From Salinicola sp. (GTDB lineage: Bacteria; Pseudomonadota; Gammaproteobacteria; Pseudomonadales; Halomonadaceae): a stretch of 34,034 nucleotides of DNA. The DNA lies in NCBI GenBank assembly GCA_002695065.1, contig NZNW01000091.1, forward strand, positions 1 to 34,034, in the 5' to 3' direction. This document shows positions 7,147 to 26,853 of this stretch, piece after piece; position 1 is the first letter of the stretch, and the number at the start of each line of letters is the position of its first letter. The notes under the pieces were generated by a model, which did no database searches, was not told the DNA's origin, and was given only the letters and a program-made list of their open reading frames with translations. Both the position numbers and the translations under genes were made by a program.

Positions 7147-8538
7147 ATGGCAGTTCACAATTATGACCTCGTGGTCATCGGCTCGGGGCCCGCGGGAGAG
7201 AGTGCAGCAATCAATGCGGCGAAGCATGGCAAGCGTGTCGCCATCGTCGAGCGGCAGTCCTCCGTCGGTGGCAACTGCACCCACTGGGGGACGATCCCCT
7301 CCAAGGCGCTACGGCACCAGGTCAAGCAGATCATGCAGTTCAACACCAACCGCATGTTCCGCGATATTGGCGAGCCCCGCTGGTTCTCTTTTCCGAAGGT
7401 TCTGGAACGCTCCCGGGTGACGATCGATCAGCAGGTCGAACTCCGCACCAAGTTCTACTCCCGCAACCGCATCGACCTGTTCTTCGGCGTGGCGCGCTTT
7501 CGCGACGAGCACACCGTCGTGGTTCGGGACAATCACGAAGGGGCGGAAGAGCTCAGTGCACCGCAGTTCGTGATCGCCACCGGCTCCCGTCCCTATCGGC
7601 CGGCGGACGTCAATTTCCGTCATCCGCGGATCTACTGCTCGGACACCATCCTCGGCCTGTCGCATACGCCACGCACGCTGATCATCTACGGTGCCGGCGT
7701 GATCGGGTCCGAGTACGCCTCCATCTTCTCCGGCCTGGGCGTCAAGGTCGACCTGATCGACACCCGCGAGCGCCTGCTCTCCTTCCTCGACGACGAGATC
7801 AGCGACGCGCTCTCCTACGAGCTGCGCAACTACGGTGTGCTGATCCGGCACAACGAAGAGTATCGCAGCGTCGAGGGTGACGAGGCCGGCGTGGTGGTCA
7901 ACCTGGAGTCCGGCAAGCGCCTGCGCGCCGATGCTTTCCTGTGGGCCAACGGACGTACCGGCAATACCGACGAACTGGGACTGGAGAACATCGGGCTGGA
8001 GGCCAACGGTCGCGGCCAGCTGCAGGTGGACGATCACTATCGCACGGCGATCCCGCATATCTACGCGGTGGGGGACGTGATCGGCTGGCCGAGCCTGGCG
8101 AGCGCGGCCTACGACCAGGGCCGCAGTGCCAGCGACGAGTTCCTCGGCGAGGATTTTCGCTTCGTCGACGACATTCCCACCGGGATCTACACGATTCCCG
8201 AGATCAGTTCGGTGGGCAAGACCGAGCGGGAGTTGACCGAAGCCAAGGTGCCCTACGAAGTGGCCCAGGCGTTCTTCAAGGATACCGCCCGCGCGCAGAT
8301 CACCGGTGACACCGCCGGCATGCTCAAGATCCTGTTCCATCGCGAGACGCTGGAGATCCTGGGGATCCACTGCTTCGGCGACCAGGCGTCGGAGATCGTC
8401 CATATCGGCCAGGCCATCATGCAGCAGAAGGGCGAGGCGAATACGCTGCGCTACTTCATCAATACCACTTTCAACTATCCCACCATGGCCGAGGCCTATC
8501 GCATCGCGGCCCAGAACGGTCTGAACCGACTGTTCTGA
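7147..8538 (+). CDS. sthA: SthA, soluble pyridine nucleotide transhydrogenase
   Basis: Cytoplasmic FAD flavoprotein that exchanges hydride between NADPH and NAD+, balancing the two pools. The protein is 463 residues. The N-terminal FAD dinucleotide fold reads [11 protein letters not shown] (residues 11-21). The position that is a redox CxxxxC pair in lipoamide dehydrogenases reads [17 protein letters not shown]: one Cys is kept and the second is Thr, the usual SthA signature. A second nucleotide-binding motif is [14 protein letters not shown], the ATG motif is [10 protein letters not shown], and the C-terminal dimer domain is intact. TAAGGAG at 7128-7134 precedes the ATG at a rather long 12-base spacing. 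It follows nqrM by 74 bp and may be separately expressed. Confidence 0.96.
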
Positions 8539-8602: not shown

Positions 8603-9514
8603 TCAGGCCTTCTCCTGCTGTTTCTGACGTTCGAGAGCGATCTGCAGGGCCGGATTGCGATAGCGATAGACACGCAGACTCTTCAGAAAGACATCGTCCT
8701 CCAGCCGCTGGTCTGACCGGCGGGCACGGGTTCGCGTCTTCGGCGGACGTGCCGGTGGATCGTTGAGATGCGGTAGCTTCAGCGCCGGGTCGGGAATGAA
8801 CAGCGGCAGCGGCAGGTTCATGGCCCGACGCATTCGCCCATCCTCCAGCGCCTCGCGGAAGAACAGGTTGGCTCGCATCACCGGCGCCTGCTGCTGGATC
8901 TGCGCCAGGGGTTCGTCGCTGGGGAGGTCGGCGAGCTTGCGCAGTTGGATCTGGATGTGCGATGCCGACAGATCCATCTGCTTCAACCGGGCCTCGGCAT
9001 CGGCAACGCTGAGGCGCTTGATCGAGCGGCCGCTGGTGTACCAGGCAAGCCTGATTCGCGAGAGCGGCGCGTCGGCGATCGGAAGCTGGCGCCAGCACTG
9101 CTTGAGATGCAGGCGGGCCAGCCCCTGGCCCCGGAGGTGGTCGTGCAGCACCGGGTGTCGGAAGGGCAGGACGGCCTTGATCTCGGGGATCAGTTTCGGG
9201 GCGGAGTGACGGATGCGTTTCAGGGTCGCGGCAAATCTTGCCTTGACGCGATTGACCGCTTCGACGGCTTCCATGATTGACGGCCCGGCGACGATCACGC
9301 CGATGTAGTTGCGCGTTTCGCGGCCATCCTGTCCGTCCTGGTACCAGAAGTCGGTCAGGGCGCGACGGAGCCAGCTGGCGTCGACGATCGAATTGCCCAG
9401 TGCCCAGGCGGGGGTGGGGTCGTCGGCGTAGGCCTTCGCCAGATGCTCGACCGCATCGATCAGGTGGTCGAAGTCGGATTCCAGCTCGGCCAGCAAGCGA
9501 TACTGCAGTTCCAT
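8603..9514 (-). CDS. tus: Tus-family DNA replication terminus site-binding protein
   Basis: Predicted to bind Ter sites and block DnaB-driven replication forks from one side. The length, 303 residues, is close to E. coli Tus (309). By recalled alignment, HDHLRGQGLARLHLKQ (residues 124-139) matches the E. coli segment HRHLPGLITLNAYRTL; Tus His144 and Gly149, which form the pocket locking the flipped Ter cytosine, correspond to His124 and Gly129 here. The following block DAPLSRIRLAWY...SIKRLSVADAEARLKQ matches [29 protein letters not shown]. A later block (MRANLFFREALEDGRMRRAMNLPLPLFIP) matches the Tus C-terminal DNA-binding region. It ends with a basic tail. It is convergent with sthA; its promoter candidate is at 9541-9570. 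Identity is low, so the family call is firmer than target specificity. Confidence 0.85.
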   Translation of the reverse strand: MELQYRLLAELESDFDHLIDAVEHLAKAYADDPTPAWALGNSIVDASWLRRALTDFWYQDGQDGRETRNYIGVIVAGPSIMEAVEAVNRVKARFAATLKRIRHSAPKLIPEIKAVLPFRHPVLHDHLRGQGLARLHLKQCWRQLPIADAPLSRIRLAWYTSGRSIKRLSVADAEARLKQMDLSASHIQIQLRKLADLPSDEPLAQIQQQAPVMRANLFFREALEDGRMRRAMNLPLPLFIPDPALKLPHLNDPPARPPKTRTRARRSDQRLEDDVFLKSLRVYRYRNPALQIALERQKQQEKA

Positions 9515-9540: not shown

Positions 9541-9570
9541 TTTATACCGTTATCCTAGCTGTTGTGACAG
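9541..9570 (-). promoter_or_regulatory. Candidate tus promoter
   Basis: On the minus strand CTGTCA (9570-9565; 4/6 match to the -35 consensus) is separated by 18 bp from TATAAA (9546-9541; 5/6 match to -10). The start of transcription would fall near 9534, about 20 bases before the tus ATG. A Ter-like core, TGTTGTGAC, lies on the plus strand at 9560-9568, overlapping the -35 element, which could allow autorepression as in E. coli. Confidence 0.45.
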
Positions 9571-9660: not shown

Positions 9661-10560
9661 TCAGCGGTCGCGGTAGCGGCGGGTCAGGTCGCCGTAGGCG
9701 TCGATACGCCGATCACGCAGGTAGGGCCAGATTCGACGCACGTCCTCGCTGCGCAGCAGATCCACCTCGACCAGCAGGTTCTCGCTCTGTTCTCCCGCCT
9801 GGGCCAGAAACTCACCCTGCGGACCACAGACGAAACTGCCACCCCAGAAATCGATGCCTTCGCCGACCCGGGACGAATCGGGTTCATGGCCCACCCGGTT
9901 GGCGACGAGCACCGGCAGGCCGTTGGCCACGCCGTGCGATCGCTGAATCAGCGTCCAGGCGTCCTTCTGGCGCTGCTTCTCCGCGGTGTCGTCGGACGGG
10001 GTCCACCCGATCGCGGTGGGATACAGCAGCAGGTCGGCGCCGGCCAGTGCCATCAAGCGAGCCGCTTCCGGATACCACTGATCCCAGCACACCAGCACGC
10101 CGAGACGACCGACCGAGGTATCGATCGGTTCGAACCCCTGCTCGGCATCCTCGTCGCCCGGTGTGAAGTAGAACTTCTCGTAGAAGCCGGGGTCGTCGGG
10201 AATGTGCATCTTGCGATAGTGCCCGACGCGGCCTCGGGCGCGATCCAGCACGATCGCGGTGTTGTGATAGAGGCCGGCAGCCCGGCGCTCGAAGATCGAG
10301 CCGACGATGACGATGTCGAGCTCTCGTGCGAGATCGGCAAGCTTTTGCCCGGTGGGGCCGTCCAATGGTTCGGCCAGGTCGAACAGCGCGGTGTCTTCGC
10401 ACTGGCAGAAATAGTGGGTCGCGTGCAGCTCCTGCAGCAGTACCAGCTCGGCGCCCTGGGCGGCGAGCTCGCGGATGCCGGCTTCGCTCGCTTCGAGGCT
10501 GCGCTGTTTTTCCGGCCAGGCCTGCTGTTGCACCAGGCCGATTCTGAGCGTCTTGGACAT
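9661..10560 (-). CDS. aguB: N-carbamoylputrescine amidase
   Basis: Nitrilase-superfamily hydrolase converting N-carbamoylputrescine to putrescine, CO2 and ammonia, the second step of the agmatine route. It is 299 residues. The Glu-Lys-Cys catalytic triad is visible: Glu44 (VLLQELHATHY), Lys117 (YRKMHIPDDPGFYEK) and Cys158 (GVLVCWDQWYPEAARL). The segments GEGIDFWGGSFV and QRSHGVANGLPVLVANR are typical of AguB rather than other nitrilases. A strong TAAGGAGA ribosome-binding site overlaps the aguA stop codon, nine bases upstream of the ATG, so the two genes form one operon. Confidence 0.94.
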   Translation of the reverse strand: MSKTLRIGLVQQQAWPEKQRSLEASEAGIRELAAQGAELVLLQELHATHYFCQCEDTALFDLAEPLDGPTGQKLADLARELDIVIVGSIFERRAAGLYHNTAIVLDRARGRVGHYRKMHIPDDPGFYEKFYFTPGDEDAEQGFEPIDTSVGRLGVLVCWDQWYPEAARLMALAGADLLLYPTAIGWTPSDDTAEKQRQKDAWTLIQRSHGVANGLPVLVANRVGHEPDSSRVGEGIDFWGGSFVCGPQGEFLAQAGEQSENLLVEVDLLRSEDVRRIWPYLRDRRIDAYGDLTRRYRDR

Positions 10561-22600: not shown

Positions 22601-25600
22601 TCAGCTGTCGCTCTGGCCGGTCTCGCGGCGACGCTTCTCGCGCGGATCGTTGTGGGCGCGCCGACGACGCGGTCGTCGCGGTTCGCCCTCGTCGCCAGTC
22701 CTGCTGGCCGCCGGGCTCTCCGCGGCTTCGGCCGGACTCTCGTCGCTTTCGGCAGCGCCGGCCTGGTGGTGCGACTGCGCCTGGGTCGGAGTCGTGGCCC
22801 TGGTTTCATCATCCGACGAAGCGGGCGTTGCCGGCGCTTCGGATGCCGGTGTCGCCGGTGCGGTGTCGCGCGGCGCGCTTGCCACCGGCTCGGCCTCATC
22901 GACCCTGGTCACTTCGTCGACAGGCTTGTCTGCCGTCTCGTCCGTGTCCGGCTTGGCGGCGGCGGCCGACGAGGGGTTCTCCCCGGTCGCAGCCGTCGAA
23001 TCGGCGGCCGACTCGTGACCCGGTGACGCTTCACCGCGCTCCGGTTGCGAGGTCTCTTCGCTGTGTGTCGCAGGGGTAGCGACATCGCTGGGCGAGGGGC
23101 TCGCCGTTGCCGGCGATCTGGCGGTGTCGGTCGCACTGTCCTCGGCGGATACCGGAGTCGCTGGCGCCTCGACAGCCCGTTCGGCGGATTCGGCCTTGGC
23201 AGCGACGTTGCTGTCGCTCGTCCGCTGGTCGGTTTCCGAACCGATCTCCGCTGAAGTGGCCGTCCGGCTCGCTTCGATCGATGCTTCGGGTTGCGCCTCG
23301 GCCGTGTGATGCTCGTCCGCGACGGAGGGAGAGGAGGCGCTCTCTGTCGTCGTCGGCTCGGGCATGGACTTGGCGGCCCGCTCCGGCTTCCGCGAGGAGG
23401 CCGCTTTTTCGGGTTCGGCTGTCTCGGACGCCTTGGCCGTGGACCGGGAGTCTTCCGGCTCGCTCGTGGTCGCGGTCGTCTCGACCTGCTCGGCACGAGG
23501 ACCTTCGCGCTTCACGGCTTGGGTCTCGGCCGCCGGGGCGTGCCCCTCGGAAGAGGCCGTCTGGTTGTGGAGGGATTTGGCCTCGACAGACTCCGTCGGC
23601 TTCGCGTTGTCACCGGTATCGTTCGTCGCTGCCGCCTGCAGCTTCTGCTGCTCCTCGACGGCCGCCGGATTCAGGGCGTGCTTGCGCGAGCGGTTACGCG
23701 GATTGTTGCGTGTTCGCTTCGGCTTGCTCTCCCCGGTCTCCTTGGTGCCGCTGGCCGCGGGCGACGCGTCGCGGTTGTCAGTGCGCTGGGGTTTGACGTT
23801 GCCGGAGGGGCTGGTGCCATCGGCCTTTGCGGTATCGGCCTTCGCGGTATCGGCCTTGGCTTCGTTGCCGATCTTGTCGGCCTTGCCGCGACCCTCCTGA
23901 CGGTTGTCCTGGCGCGGCTGACGACCCTGGCCCTGACGACTGTCGTTGCGGGTGTCGTTTCCACCCTGACGATCGTCCTGACCGCGACGGCGCCGGTTGT
24001 TGCCCTGGCGATTGCCATCGCCACCACGGGCGTTGCTGTCACCACGGGCGTTGCTGTCGCCACGGGTGTTGTTGTTGTCGCCACGGGCGTTGCCGTCGTT
24101 GGATCGGGACTGACTGTCGCTGCGTTTGCCGCTGCTGTCGCGATCGCTCTTCTGGCCTGTCGATCGGGAAGAGCGGGAGCTGGCCGAGCCGCTGCCCGTG
24201 CCGTTACCGCGGGAAGCGCCCGTGGACCGGTTGCCACTCTGGCCGCCCTGATCGCGCTGGCCGGAGGTATCGTGGGATCCCGGCACTTCCTCGTCGGCAC
24301 GACGGCGCCCGAACAGACCCCGGAAGAGCTGCATCAGGCCGCCATTGGCCTGGGCCTGCGGAGTCGCCGCTGGCGTGGCTGCTGCACGCTCGGCGGCGGG
24401 CTGAGGGGCGGGCTGAGGGGCGGACTGAGGAGCGGGCTTCTCGGGTTCCTGATGCAGCGAGTCCGGAGCCGGGGCGGTGTGCTGGACCGTCTGCACGGCC
24501 GCCTGGGTGCGCTGGATCGGCTTGGCGAGCGTCGTTTCCGGCTCCTTGAACAGATCGCTATCGACGGAGAGTTCGAAGCTCGACTTGGTCTCGTCGCCAT
24601 CTTCGGAGACGTGATCGTCACGGAGGCGCTGGACATCGTAGTGTGGCGTGTCCATCTCCGGATTCGGCAGCAACAGAACCTTGACACCCTGGCGGCGCTC
24701 GACATCGGAGAGAACGTTACGCTTCTCGTTGAGCAGGTAAGTCGCCACCGGCACCGGCAGAATGGCGCGAATCTGGGCGCTGCGCTCTTTCATGGCCTCT
24801 TCTTCGATCAGGCGAAGAATCGACAGCGCCATGGAGCGCACGTCGCGAATGGTGCCCTGGCCATCGCAGCGGGGGCAGACGACGCCACTGGTCTCGCCGA
24901 GCGAGGGGCGCAGCCGCTGGCGCGACATCTCCATCAGCCCGAAGCGCGAGATACGACCGATCTGTACGCGGGCGCGGTCGAGCTTGAGCGCGTCGCGAAC
25001 GCGGTTTTCGACTTCGCGCTGGTTGCGTGCCGGCGACATGTCGATGAAATCGATGACCACCAGGCCGCCGATATCGCGCAGCCGCAGCTGGCGGGCGATC
25101 TCGTCGGAGGCTTCCAGGTTGGTCTGGAGCGCGGTTTCCTCGATGTCCGCGCCGCGAGTGGCGCGTGCCGAGTTGATGTCGATCGAGACCAGCGCTTCGG
25201 TGTGGTCGATAACCACCGAGCCACCCGAGGGCAGCTTGACCTCGCGCTGATAGGCGGTCTCGATCTGGGATTCGATCTGGAAGCGCGAGAACAGCGGAAC
25301 GTCGTCGGTGTAGAGCTTGATCTTCTGCTGATAGGACGGCATCACCTGGCGGATGAAGCTCAGCGCCTCCTCGTGCACGTCCGCACTGTCGATCAGCACC
25401 TCGCCGATGTCCTGGCGCAGGTAGTCGCGCATGGCGCGGATGATCACGTTCGATTCGCGGTAGATCAGGAACGGGGCAGGGCGCTTGACCGCTTCGGTGG
25501 TGATCGCGTCCCACACCTGGACCAGGTAGTCGAGATCCCACTGCAACTCTTCCGGAGAACGGCCGATACCCGCGGTGCGCACGATGACGCCCATCTTGTC

Positions 25601-26077
25601 GGGCAGGGTCAATTGACCCATGGCATCCTTGAGCTGGCTGCGCTCATCGCCCTCGATCCGGCGGGATATGCCGCCGGCGCGGGGGTTGTTGGGCATCAGT
25701 ACCAGGAATCGTCCCGCCAGGCTGATGAAGGTCGTCAGCGCCGCGCCTTTGTTGCCGCGCTCCTCCTTGTCGACCTGGACGATGACCTCCTGGCCTTCCT
25801 TCAGGACTTCCTTGATGTTGGGTCGGCCCGAAGGATCCTTGGAGAAGTACTCGCGGGAGATTTCCTTGAGCGGCAGGAAGCCGTGGCGTTCCGCGCCGAA
25901 GTCGACGAAAGCCGCTTCGAGGCTGGGTTCGAGGCGGGTGATTTTGCCCCGATAGATGTTGGCTTTCTTCTGCTCCCGGGCACCGGATTCGATGTCCAGG
26001 TCGTAAAGGCGTTGTCCATCCACGAGTGCGACGCGCAGCTCTTCCGGCTGTGTCGCATTGATGAGCATTCTTTTCAT
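22601..26077 (-). CDS. rne: RNase E
   Basis: Essential endoribonuclease for mRNA decay and rRNA/tRNA processing, and scaffold of the degradosome. It is 1158 residues, longer than E. coli RNase E (1061). The start [22 protein letters not shown] is almost identical to E. coli. Order: RNase H-like and S1 RNA-binding domain (about 36-125), 5' sensor, then DNase I-like catalytic domain with Asp300 ([13 protein letters not shown]) and Asp343 (VIDFIDM), and the zinc-link Cys401/Cys404 (CPRCDGQG). After residue ~500 the chain is low complexity: a PQ-rich linker, a probable amphipathic membrane-targeting helix ([15 protein letters not shown], about 579-593), Arg/Gly/Asn/Asp repeats, AKADT repeats, then a long acidic Ala/Glu/Ser region and an Arg-rich tail. 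A ~650-base leader is predicted. Confidence 0.97.
23816..23860 (-). repeat. 15-bp tandem repeats in rne (AKADT units)
   Basis: Three degenerate 15-bp units; the last two are GGTATCGGCCTTCGC (23831-23845) and GGTATCGGCCTTGGC (23846-23860), with a diverged unit before them. On the minus strand they encode consecutive A-K-A-D-T blocks in the disordered tail of RNase E. Confidence 0.85.
24024..24098 (-). repeat. 18-bp tandem repeats in rne (RGDSNA units)
   Basis: Four units begin CCACGGG at 24024, 24042, 24060 and 24081. Three are 18 bp and the third is 21 bp. The unit CCACGGGCGTTGCTGTCA/G encodes a G-D-S-N-A-R type hexapeptide on the minus strand, in a likely RNA- or protein-binding basic segment of RNase E. 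Copy number is prone to slippage. Confidence 0.88.
24398..24433 (-). repeat. 12-bp tandem repeats in rne (APQP units)
   Basis: Three units, GGGCTGAGGGGC (24398-24409), the same again (24410-24421) and GGACTGAGGAGC (24422-24433), encode the Pro-Gln-rich linker that precedes the predicted membrane-targeting helix of RNase E. Confidence 0.85.
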
Positions 26078-26853
26078 ACGGTCTCGCTAATTGAGCGTGC
26101 CGGTGGAAGGCGTGCTGCAATCGGCGACGACGAACCGCAAGCGGTCGTGCTGTGCTCGCGCACATTGGTGAAGCGACCCGGCAGGGCAAGCAGGCGCATG
26201 GTGTGCCGGAACGGGCTCAGCGTGTCACACGTAAGGGAACCCGCGTCAGGAACTCGAGGGGAATGTCCGAACAACGCAGTTCGAGTCGCGCGATGCGGCT
26301 ATCGGTGCGAGTTCGGGTCGACGCTCGTCGAGCCCAGTGGCGTGCTTGCTCATTACCATTACATCTTTGCTTTCATTACCTGCTTGCTAGGGACGCTACA
26401 CGAACATGGGTTGAGTACGAAACGGTGGCAGGACATGTCACGGCGCGTTTTTCGTCGACGCATCCGGTCCTGCAGACTGCCGTCTATATCACTTGGCATT
26501 GTTCGGTTCGGCGACGCCTTCCACTGGTACCTGTGGATTTCCCGCGAGCATGGCGATCTGATGTCAGTCGCACGGTCGAGTCGGGGCCTGGCGTTCCAAA
26601 CGTGTTTTGATCACTCCAGCAGCCGTGAGCGGTTGGCTTCGTTAACTCTCTGGAAGATCGAGACATTTTTTCACTTCGGTCAGCCTATGCAGTCGCTGAC
26701 GCCTGAATGGGTGATAAACCCATCGAGTGAGTCCGCAATATAACAGTAATGCCGAGGCAGCGGCAATTGAGCTCGCGCTACCGGCTGCGTGCGTTAGAAT
26801 GGCGCCCGGCGGCGCGCTGGTGTCGCCGCGCAGTGCCGTCGAGGGAGTCGAGC
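26078..26853. other. Long non-coding region between divergent rne and rluC (rne leader)
   Basis: This is 776 bp with no convincing gene. Open frames here lack ribosome-binding sites and family resemblance, and parts of it (about 26340-26750) are visibly more AT-rich than the neighbouring genes. With the promoter at 26737-26766, most of it would be the 5' untranslated leader of rne, about 650 bases. E. coli rne also has a long leader (about 360 bases) through which RNase E controls its own mRNA, and in E. coli rne and rluC are likewise divergent. A short stem CGCT/AGCG (26085-26097) lies just before the rne start. Confidence 0.75.
26737..26766 (-). promoter_or_regulatory. Candidate rne promoter
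   Basis: On the minus strand TTGCCG (26766-26761, 4/6), an 18-bp spacer and TATATT (26742-26737, 5/6) predict a transcript starting near 26730, about 650 bases upstream of the rne ATG. It lies in the most AT-rich part of the rne-rluC gap. Additional promoters closer to rne are possible. Confidence 0.55.

Follow-up and report, generated by a model that had tools for sequence, protein, structure and literature searches.

A 34,034-nt stretch of Salinicola sp. DNA (contig NZNW01000091.1), which we call the window, carries a chromosomal gene for a remote homologue of the replication terminator protein Tus, and this protein and a set of asymmetric Ter sites very probably make up a polar replication fork trap (Table 1). 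Homology, predicted fold, sites, their polarity, their centering on the terminus and the co-occurrence of gene and sites are all observed, and by this anatomy the system is probably a fork trap with a Ter sequence of its own.

Table 1. Features of the window discussed in the text (window coordinates)
Feature	Coordinates	Strand	Evidence and remarks
SthA, Si-specific NAD(P)(+) transhydrogenase, convergent neighbor	7147..8538	+	Over the NCBIfam cut-off; synteny only
Tus-like replication terminator protein gene, 303 aa	8603..9514	-	ORF, homologues, profile and fold evidence
Ter-like site AGGATAACGGTATAAA, proposed Ter and operator	9541..9556	-	One mismatch to AAGATAACGGTATAAA; 26 bp upstream of the start codon
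N-carbamoylputrescine amidase-like gene, upstream neighbor on the same strand	9661..10560	-	Below the equivalog cut-off; synteny only

The Tus-like gene and its homology to Tus

The ORF, which starts with ATG, is a real and conserved gene. It has a single match in the genome of the window (a draft assembly of 153 contigs), and homologues were found at E<=0.001 in 47 of the 194 genomes of an order sample. A survey of its own family found the gene in 194 of 201 genomes; the seven others are all six genomes sampled from the genus g366 (G564, G585, G599, G611, G622 and G633) and one genome that is 77% complete. The absence of the gene across g366 is apparently a lineage-specific loss, and this genus would serve as a naturally occurring control for site loss. 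Among named relatives from Salinicola and Halomonas 92 loci with the gene were found, 80 of which were kept; the nearest relatives of the protein belong to Salinicola (96% in S. corii).

The 80 named loci show two types of context. In the first type genes for an AguB-like protein and SthA adjoin the Tus-like gene, both of them in 29 loci and only one in seven. In the second type, seen in 44 loci (L064 and 43 further ones, many of the Halomonas type), a gene which we take, from its peptide, to be yacG lies at most 1.5 kb ahead, and six of these loci have SthA downstream. YacG is a gyrase inhibitor, and the pairing of a gene for a terminator protein with one for a gyrase regulator is possibly meaningful. 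By the criteria for a resident tus named in passages of Galli et al. (PMC6549158), a congruent distribution and a conserved context, the gene looks resident.

The first-pass annotation had described the protein as a divergent Tus homologue of Tus-like length, encoded on a chromosome that is likely not enterobacterial. The length (303 aa vs. 309 aa) and the named relatives, which are Salinicola and Halomonas, agree with this, and so does the evidence on homology, which, because PF05472 misses the protein, is visible only through profiles, intermediate sequences and the fold. A match to this Pfam model, by which the same annotation had suggested checking the homology, was found neither for the window protein nor, at E<=1, for any of 52 family members, and a search of the window genome with PF05472 gave no match, although the E. 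coli control was detected. Single-sequence searches with the window protein in NCBIfam, in PHROGs and, by phmmer, in the PDB yielded no match to Tus, nor was Tus found among the PDB sequences with the HMM of A1. The best phmmer match in the PDB (7xz3, E 0.16) and a match of this HMM (8ek4, E 0.17) are at the chance level and were discarded. Thirteen of the 52 family members match UreE_N (best E 3e-4), of which the fold matches listed show no sign.

In a profile-profile comparison by hhalign, the family of 110 members was aligned with six Tus sequences at a probability of 99.1% and E 1.9e-18, over 259 columns covering residues 5-284 with 17% identity; the match to E. coli Tus alone was weaker (probability 53, E 1.3e-4). 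The HMM of the 110-member family matched nine class proteins (L111-L119) at E 1e-18 to 1e-67, six order proteins at E 1e-15 to 4e-4 and E. coli Tus at E 2.8e-4, all these E-values referring to a small search set. The nine class proteins had been brought in by PF05472, eight of them scoring over the Pfam cut-off, and so connect the family with the Pfam model. The AlphaFold (AF2) model of the window protein (pLDDT 86.6, pTM 0.75) matched only four PDB entries at E<=0.001, all of them E. coli Tus (TM 0.58-0.63, rmsd 6.4-7.8), with 1ecr as the best match (E 1.3e-12) and the next match at E 0.11. Taken together, profiles, intermediates and predicted fold support the conclusion that the window protein is a remote and very divergent homologue of Tus.

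A His and a Gly of the pocket support the lock in E. coli Tus, and the first-pass annotation had pointed to His124 and Gly129 of the window protein as their counterparts. In the profile alignment, which has gaps in that region, the two residues do fall opposite His144 and Gly149 of E. coli Tus. As evidence for Tus identity they appear weak, since both columns vary among proteins whose genomes share an identical Ter: Asp, Asn, Arg, Ala or Gln occurs in the His column, and residues such as Arg, Tyr, Gln or Ser occur in the Gly column. His124 is kept in 72, and Gly129 in 71, of 87 Halomonadaceae-type rows, which include a few duplicate genomes; the 23 other rows have mostly Arg or Asn in place of His124, and five of them keep Gly129. 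Strongly conserved positions outside this pair include Asn88, Arg142, Trp158, Pro211, Pro237, Arg266 and Asp268.

Ter-like sites around the terminus

Footprinting of the DNA upstream of orthologues revealed an asymmetric element with the consensus AAGATAACGGTATAAA. In many of the orthologues listed, which come from Salinicola, from Halomonas-type genomes and from much more distant genera, GATAACGGTATAA lies within 150 bp of the start codon. The copy in the window contains the exact 12-mer at 9542-9553, and its orthologue in the S. corii genome G130 is the minus-strand site at position 141,992 of scaffold C24. Outside the 12-mer pattern, G is found at position -1 in 68 and A at position -2 in 63 of 70 sites; these 70 were drawn from 83 12-mer sites, the 13 sites of G155, G162 and G030 being omitted. 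The logo was made from 79 sites, nine of them G036 sites from a search with a 13-mer that already contains G at -1, and it is the count on 70 sites that is unbiased. The E. coli-type Ter was rejected as a site of the window, where it occurs at chance frequency (one match with three mismatches vs. 1.79 expected).

A copy of the site lies within 200 bp upstream of the gene in 36 of the 39 named loci that are not close behind yacG, and autorepression is likely at such loci because one copy falls in the promoter region of the gene. In the other 41 of the 80 named loci a yacG-like gene precedes the Tus-like gene at a distance of at most 300 bp, and none of these 41 has a site within 200 bp upstream, so that autoregulation cannot be general.

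The exact ATAACGGTATAA was present in all 16 gene-bearing genomes first searched, with 2-10 exact copies per chromosome, vs. 0 or 1 match per genome for the reversed pattern used as a control in the same genomes. On each of the 14 contigs holding sites on both strands, all minus-strand sites come before all plus-strand sites, an order that is independent of contig orientation. Ten chromosomes, nine of them complete or in one contig and the tenth represented by the main of two contigs (G075), were analyzed as a set, using 12-mer sites for six genomes and 13-mer sites for the four named complete chromosomes S. tamaricis CP023559, H. socia CP048812, H. beimenensis CP021435 and Halomonas sp. A40-4 CP065230. 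All 52 exact sites of these ten chromosomes have uniform polarity and are separated perfectly (p 2.7e-11 given the counts). When sites with at most one mismatch were counted in the four named chromosomes, all 28 were correctly turned, the reversed control giving 0, 3, 0 and 2 matches.

The antipode of dnaA is located inside the innermost pair of sites in four of the ten chromosomes and at a distance of 0.2-4.8% of the chromosome in the remaining six. A search pattern that we take to represent dif matched seven of the 13 genomes searched. In all six genomes with a dif match on the contig of the sites, the innermost pair encloses dif, and each of the 31 exact sites on these contigs turns its AAG end to dif. 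An oriented motif near the terminus, which the first-pass annotation had expected of a fork trap with its own Ter, is therefore present, and the fork trap itself emerges as an anatomy of oriented sites around dif and the dnaA antipode. With one mismatch allowed, G036 has 10 sites on one side of dif and seven on the other, all correctly turned, and in G177 two of 13 sites among the matches listed have the wrong polarity. With two mismatches allowed, the totals are near the reversed control (higher in six and lower in three of nine genomes), and these searches were set aside as close to background.

The contigs of the window genome are short, and its sites were placed by alignment onto a scaffold of a near relative, C24 of S. 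corii (G130). The order on C24 is 141,992(-), 264,241(-), dif at 319,192, 370,758(+) and 387,180(+). Four of the six exact sites of the window genome map to C24, on both sides of dif and with the correct polarity; of the other two, the site on contig C93 maps to scaffold C27, and for the site on contig C19 no alignment was obtained in the stretches fetched. In S. corii (G130), G036, G075, G111 and S. tamaricis another site lies further inward than the gene-adjacent one.

Site and polarity are kept in five families of the order (f1, f6, f31, f37 and f38), and the proteins of the four families outside f1 are 33-46% identical to that of the window. The oriented array is also present in genomes with no site before the gene, namely G073, H. 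socia and A40-4, in which the gene closely follows yacG, and H. beimenensis and G102, in which yacG lies slightly further upstream. Since yacG-adjacent genomes keep the array, the sites are not merely the promoter of the gene.

Co-occurrence of gene and sites, and what they may do

At least three exact sites were found in 23 of 27 order genomes with a strong homologue, in two of 20 with a weak one and in three of 147 with none, the split between strong and weak at E<=1e-30 having been chosen after inspection of the list; for all 47 homologue-bearing genomes together the count is 25 of 47. The difference between strong and no homologue is highly significant (Fisher 1.5e-21), and according to these counts it is only with the closer branch of homologues that the array is associated. 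The reversed control reached three matches in none of the 27, three of the 20 and 10 of the 147 genomes, respectively. The mean numbers of exact sites are 5.0, 1.1 and 0.31 for genomes with a strong, a weak and no homologue, and those of reversed-pattern matches are 0.52, 1.0 and 0.71.

Exceptions occur in both directions. Four of the 27 strong-homologue genomes have fewer than three exact sites (G033 has none), and G011, G034 and G072 have at least three and no homologue at E<=0.001. These three and G068, which likewise is without a homologue at this threshold, contain 2-4 exact copies of the motif; in G068 one minus-strand site is followed by one plus-strand site 90 kb away. G034 has a weak match to PF05472, and a more divergent terminator may be present in these four genomes.

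In the more distant f16 genomes G144, G168, G189 and G015, the homologues (L280-L283) have a common upstream element, TTGATAACGAYTTATTAAGTG...ATAAT, one of the four copies beginning with TTGGTAACG. It occurs once in the 0.8 Mb of G144 examined, which we assume to include the terminus, and to us it looks like a sigma-70 promoter and probably does not form a Ter array. The DNA upstream of six other distant homologues (L284-L289), inspected by eye, has no such element.

From this anatomy we infer Ter binding, polar arrest and autorepression. The protein, presumably monomeric as Tus is, would bind the asymmetric site 5'-AAGATAACGGTATAAA-3'. By analogy with E. coli, forks heading to dif would pass the sites, and forks that have gone past dif and head on to the origin would be stopped, so that both forks would be confined to the terminus. 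E. coli Ter contains a G6-C6 pair, and the near-invariant G at -1, at the putative blocking end of the site, may be its counterpart. The blocking face is predicted to be the AAGATAAC end, which faces dif, according to the fork-trap logic found in passages of Galli et al. (PMC6549158). Where a site lies in the promoter of the gene, as in the window and many relatives, expression of the gene is probably repressed by its own product. E. coli tus is autorepressed in this manner at TerB, as described in passages of PMC10331603.

Other explanations of gene and sites can be considered. The core of the motif resembles a -10 box (GGTATAAA), a copy stands shortly upstream of the gene in the 36 of 39 loci mentioned above, and the protein has a DNA-binding fold, all of which would suit an operator or promoter element of an ordinary regulon with the protein as a plain repressor. 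A regulon would not, however, be expected to flip its polarity at dif or the dnaA antipode, as happens in 10 of 10 chromosomes and for 52 of 52 exact sites, and G073, H. socia, A40-4, H. beimenensis and G102 keep the array without the gene-upstream site, which makes this explanation highly improbable. We see an equally slim chance that the sites belong to another system organizing the terminus (KOPS-, matS- or dif-associated) and that the Tus-like gene is linked to them by phylogeny only. The sites do center on dif, as such elements do, but KOPS are numerous and matS is palindromic, whereas only 2-10 exact copies are present per genome; moreover, a site is found at the promoter region of the gene itself in distant genera, the presence of sites follows the gene across 194 genomes, and the protein has the fold of Tus.

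The protein could also be a Tus relative that binds the sites and no longer blocks forks, the array then being a relic or serving terminus organization. The variation of the pocket His and Gly in the family is in line with this, but site and polarity are kept in five families despite 33-46% identity of the proteins, which suggests selection on a polar function, and we regard a non-blocking protein as unlikely.

Relation to known termination systems

The polar fork trap proposed here resembles Tus-Ter of E. coli (PF05472, TerA-J) in the fold (1ecr) and length of the protein and in profile similarity over the full length, in having asymmetric sites in two opposed clusters that flank dif, and, in many members, in having a site in the promoter region. 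In the five genomes named above the gene-adjacent site is, as in E. coli, not the innermost, an arrangement that is type II-like in the terms used in passages of PMC8707476 and PMC10331603. Unlike in E. coli, the sequence of the site is a different one, the pocket His and Gly are not conserved, and the protein, 17% identical, is missed by the Pfam model. B. subtilis RTP-Ter, according to passages of PMC10331603, is likewise a fork trap of polar action whose terminator gene is autoregulated; unlike the presumably monomeric protein of the window, RTP is described there as a dimer acting on paired half-sites, and none of the best 50 of 142 fold matches is RTP.

Homologous proteins are encoded by plasmids of Halomonas, Marinobacter and Pseudomonas (for example WP_304526807.1, WP_035564265.1 and WP_058341907.1), in contrast to the chromosomal gene of the window. 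The identity is 35-54% for three Halomonas plasmids and about 26-31% for the other 17, and several of the plasmid homologues are already annotated as "DNA replication terminus site-binding protein". No copy of TAACGGTATA was found in the 8.5-12.9 kb fetched around each of five plasmid homologues, and the Ter sequences of plasmids may differ. These five (L133, L134, L135, L136 and L137) are from plasmids of Halomonas, Vibrio, Marinobacter and Pseudomonas.

According to passages of Galli et al. 2019 (PMC6549158), where PF05472 was used, a resident tus is found only in most Enterobacteriales, in Pseudoalteromonas and in nearly all Aeromonadales, and was recently domesticated. The same distribution is given in passages of PMC10331603 and is repeated in those of a paper from 2026 (PMC12809603). 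The gene described here is present in 194 of 201 family genomes, with recurrent neighbors and an oriented array, so this published range is probably too small, a branch of the family having escaped the Pfam model. Among the open-access papers listed, judged by titles and the beginnings of abstracts, we found no report of a fork trap in Halomonadaceae or of this Ter; a search for ATAACGGTAT returned nothing relevant by title among the matches listed, and TTATACCGTTAT had no occurrence. The label of the protein, in contrast, is already known from the public annotation of some plasmid relatives.

Halomonadaceae and several sister families may possess a fourth and older chromosome-resident lineage of Tus-Ter, with the near-invariant Ter AAGATAACGGTATAAA, proteins with only 33-46% identity from one family to another and a polarity achieved without the lock residues of E. 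coli; to us, the existence of such a lineage is about as probable as its absence. If it is true, fork traps have a wider distribution and a greater age than the view of just three recent domestications of tus implies. The Ter sequence reported here is exact and testable in culturable halophiles, represents a second Tus-Ter specificity for the study of the lock mechanism, and could possibly be a source of orthogonal barriers where Tus-Ter is employed in other hosts.

Elsewhere in the window, at 22601-26077 and 23291-26743, the minus-strand ORF encodes RNase E, and the plus-strand frame of 1150 codons opposite it, which has no NCBIfam match, is probably a shadow ORF.
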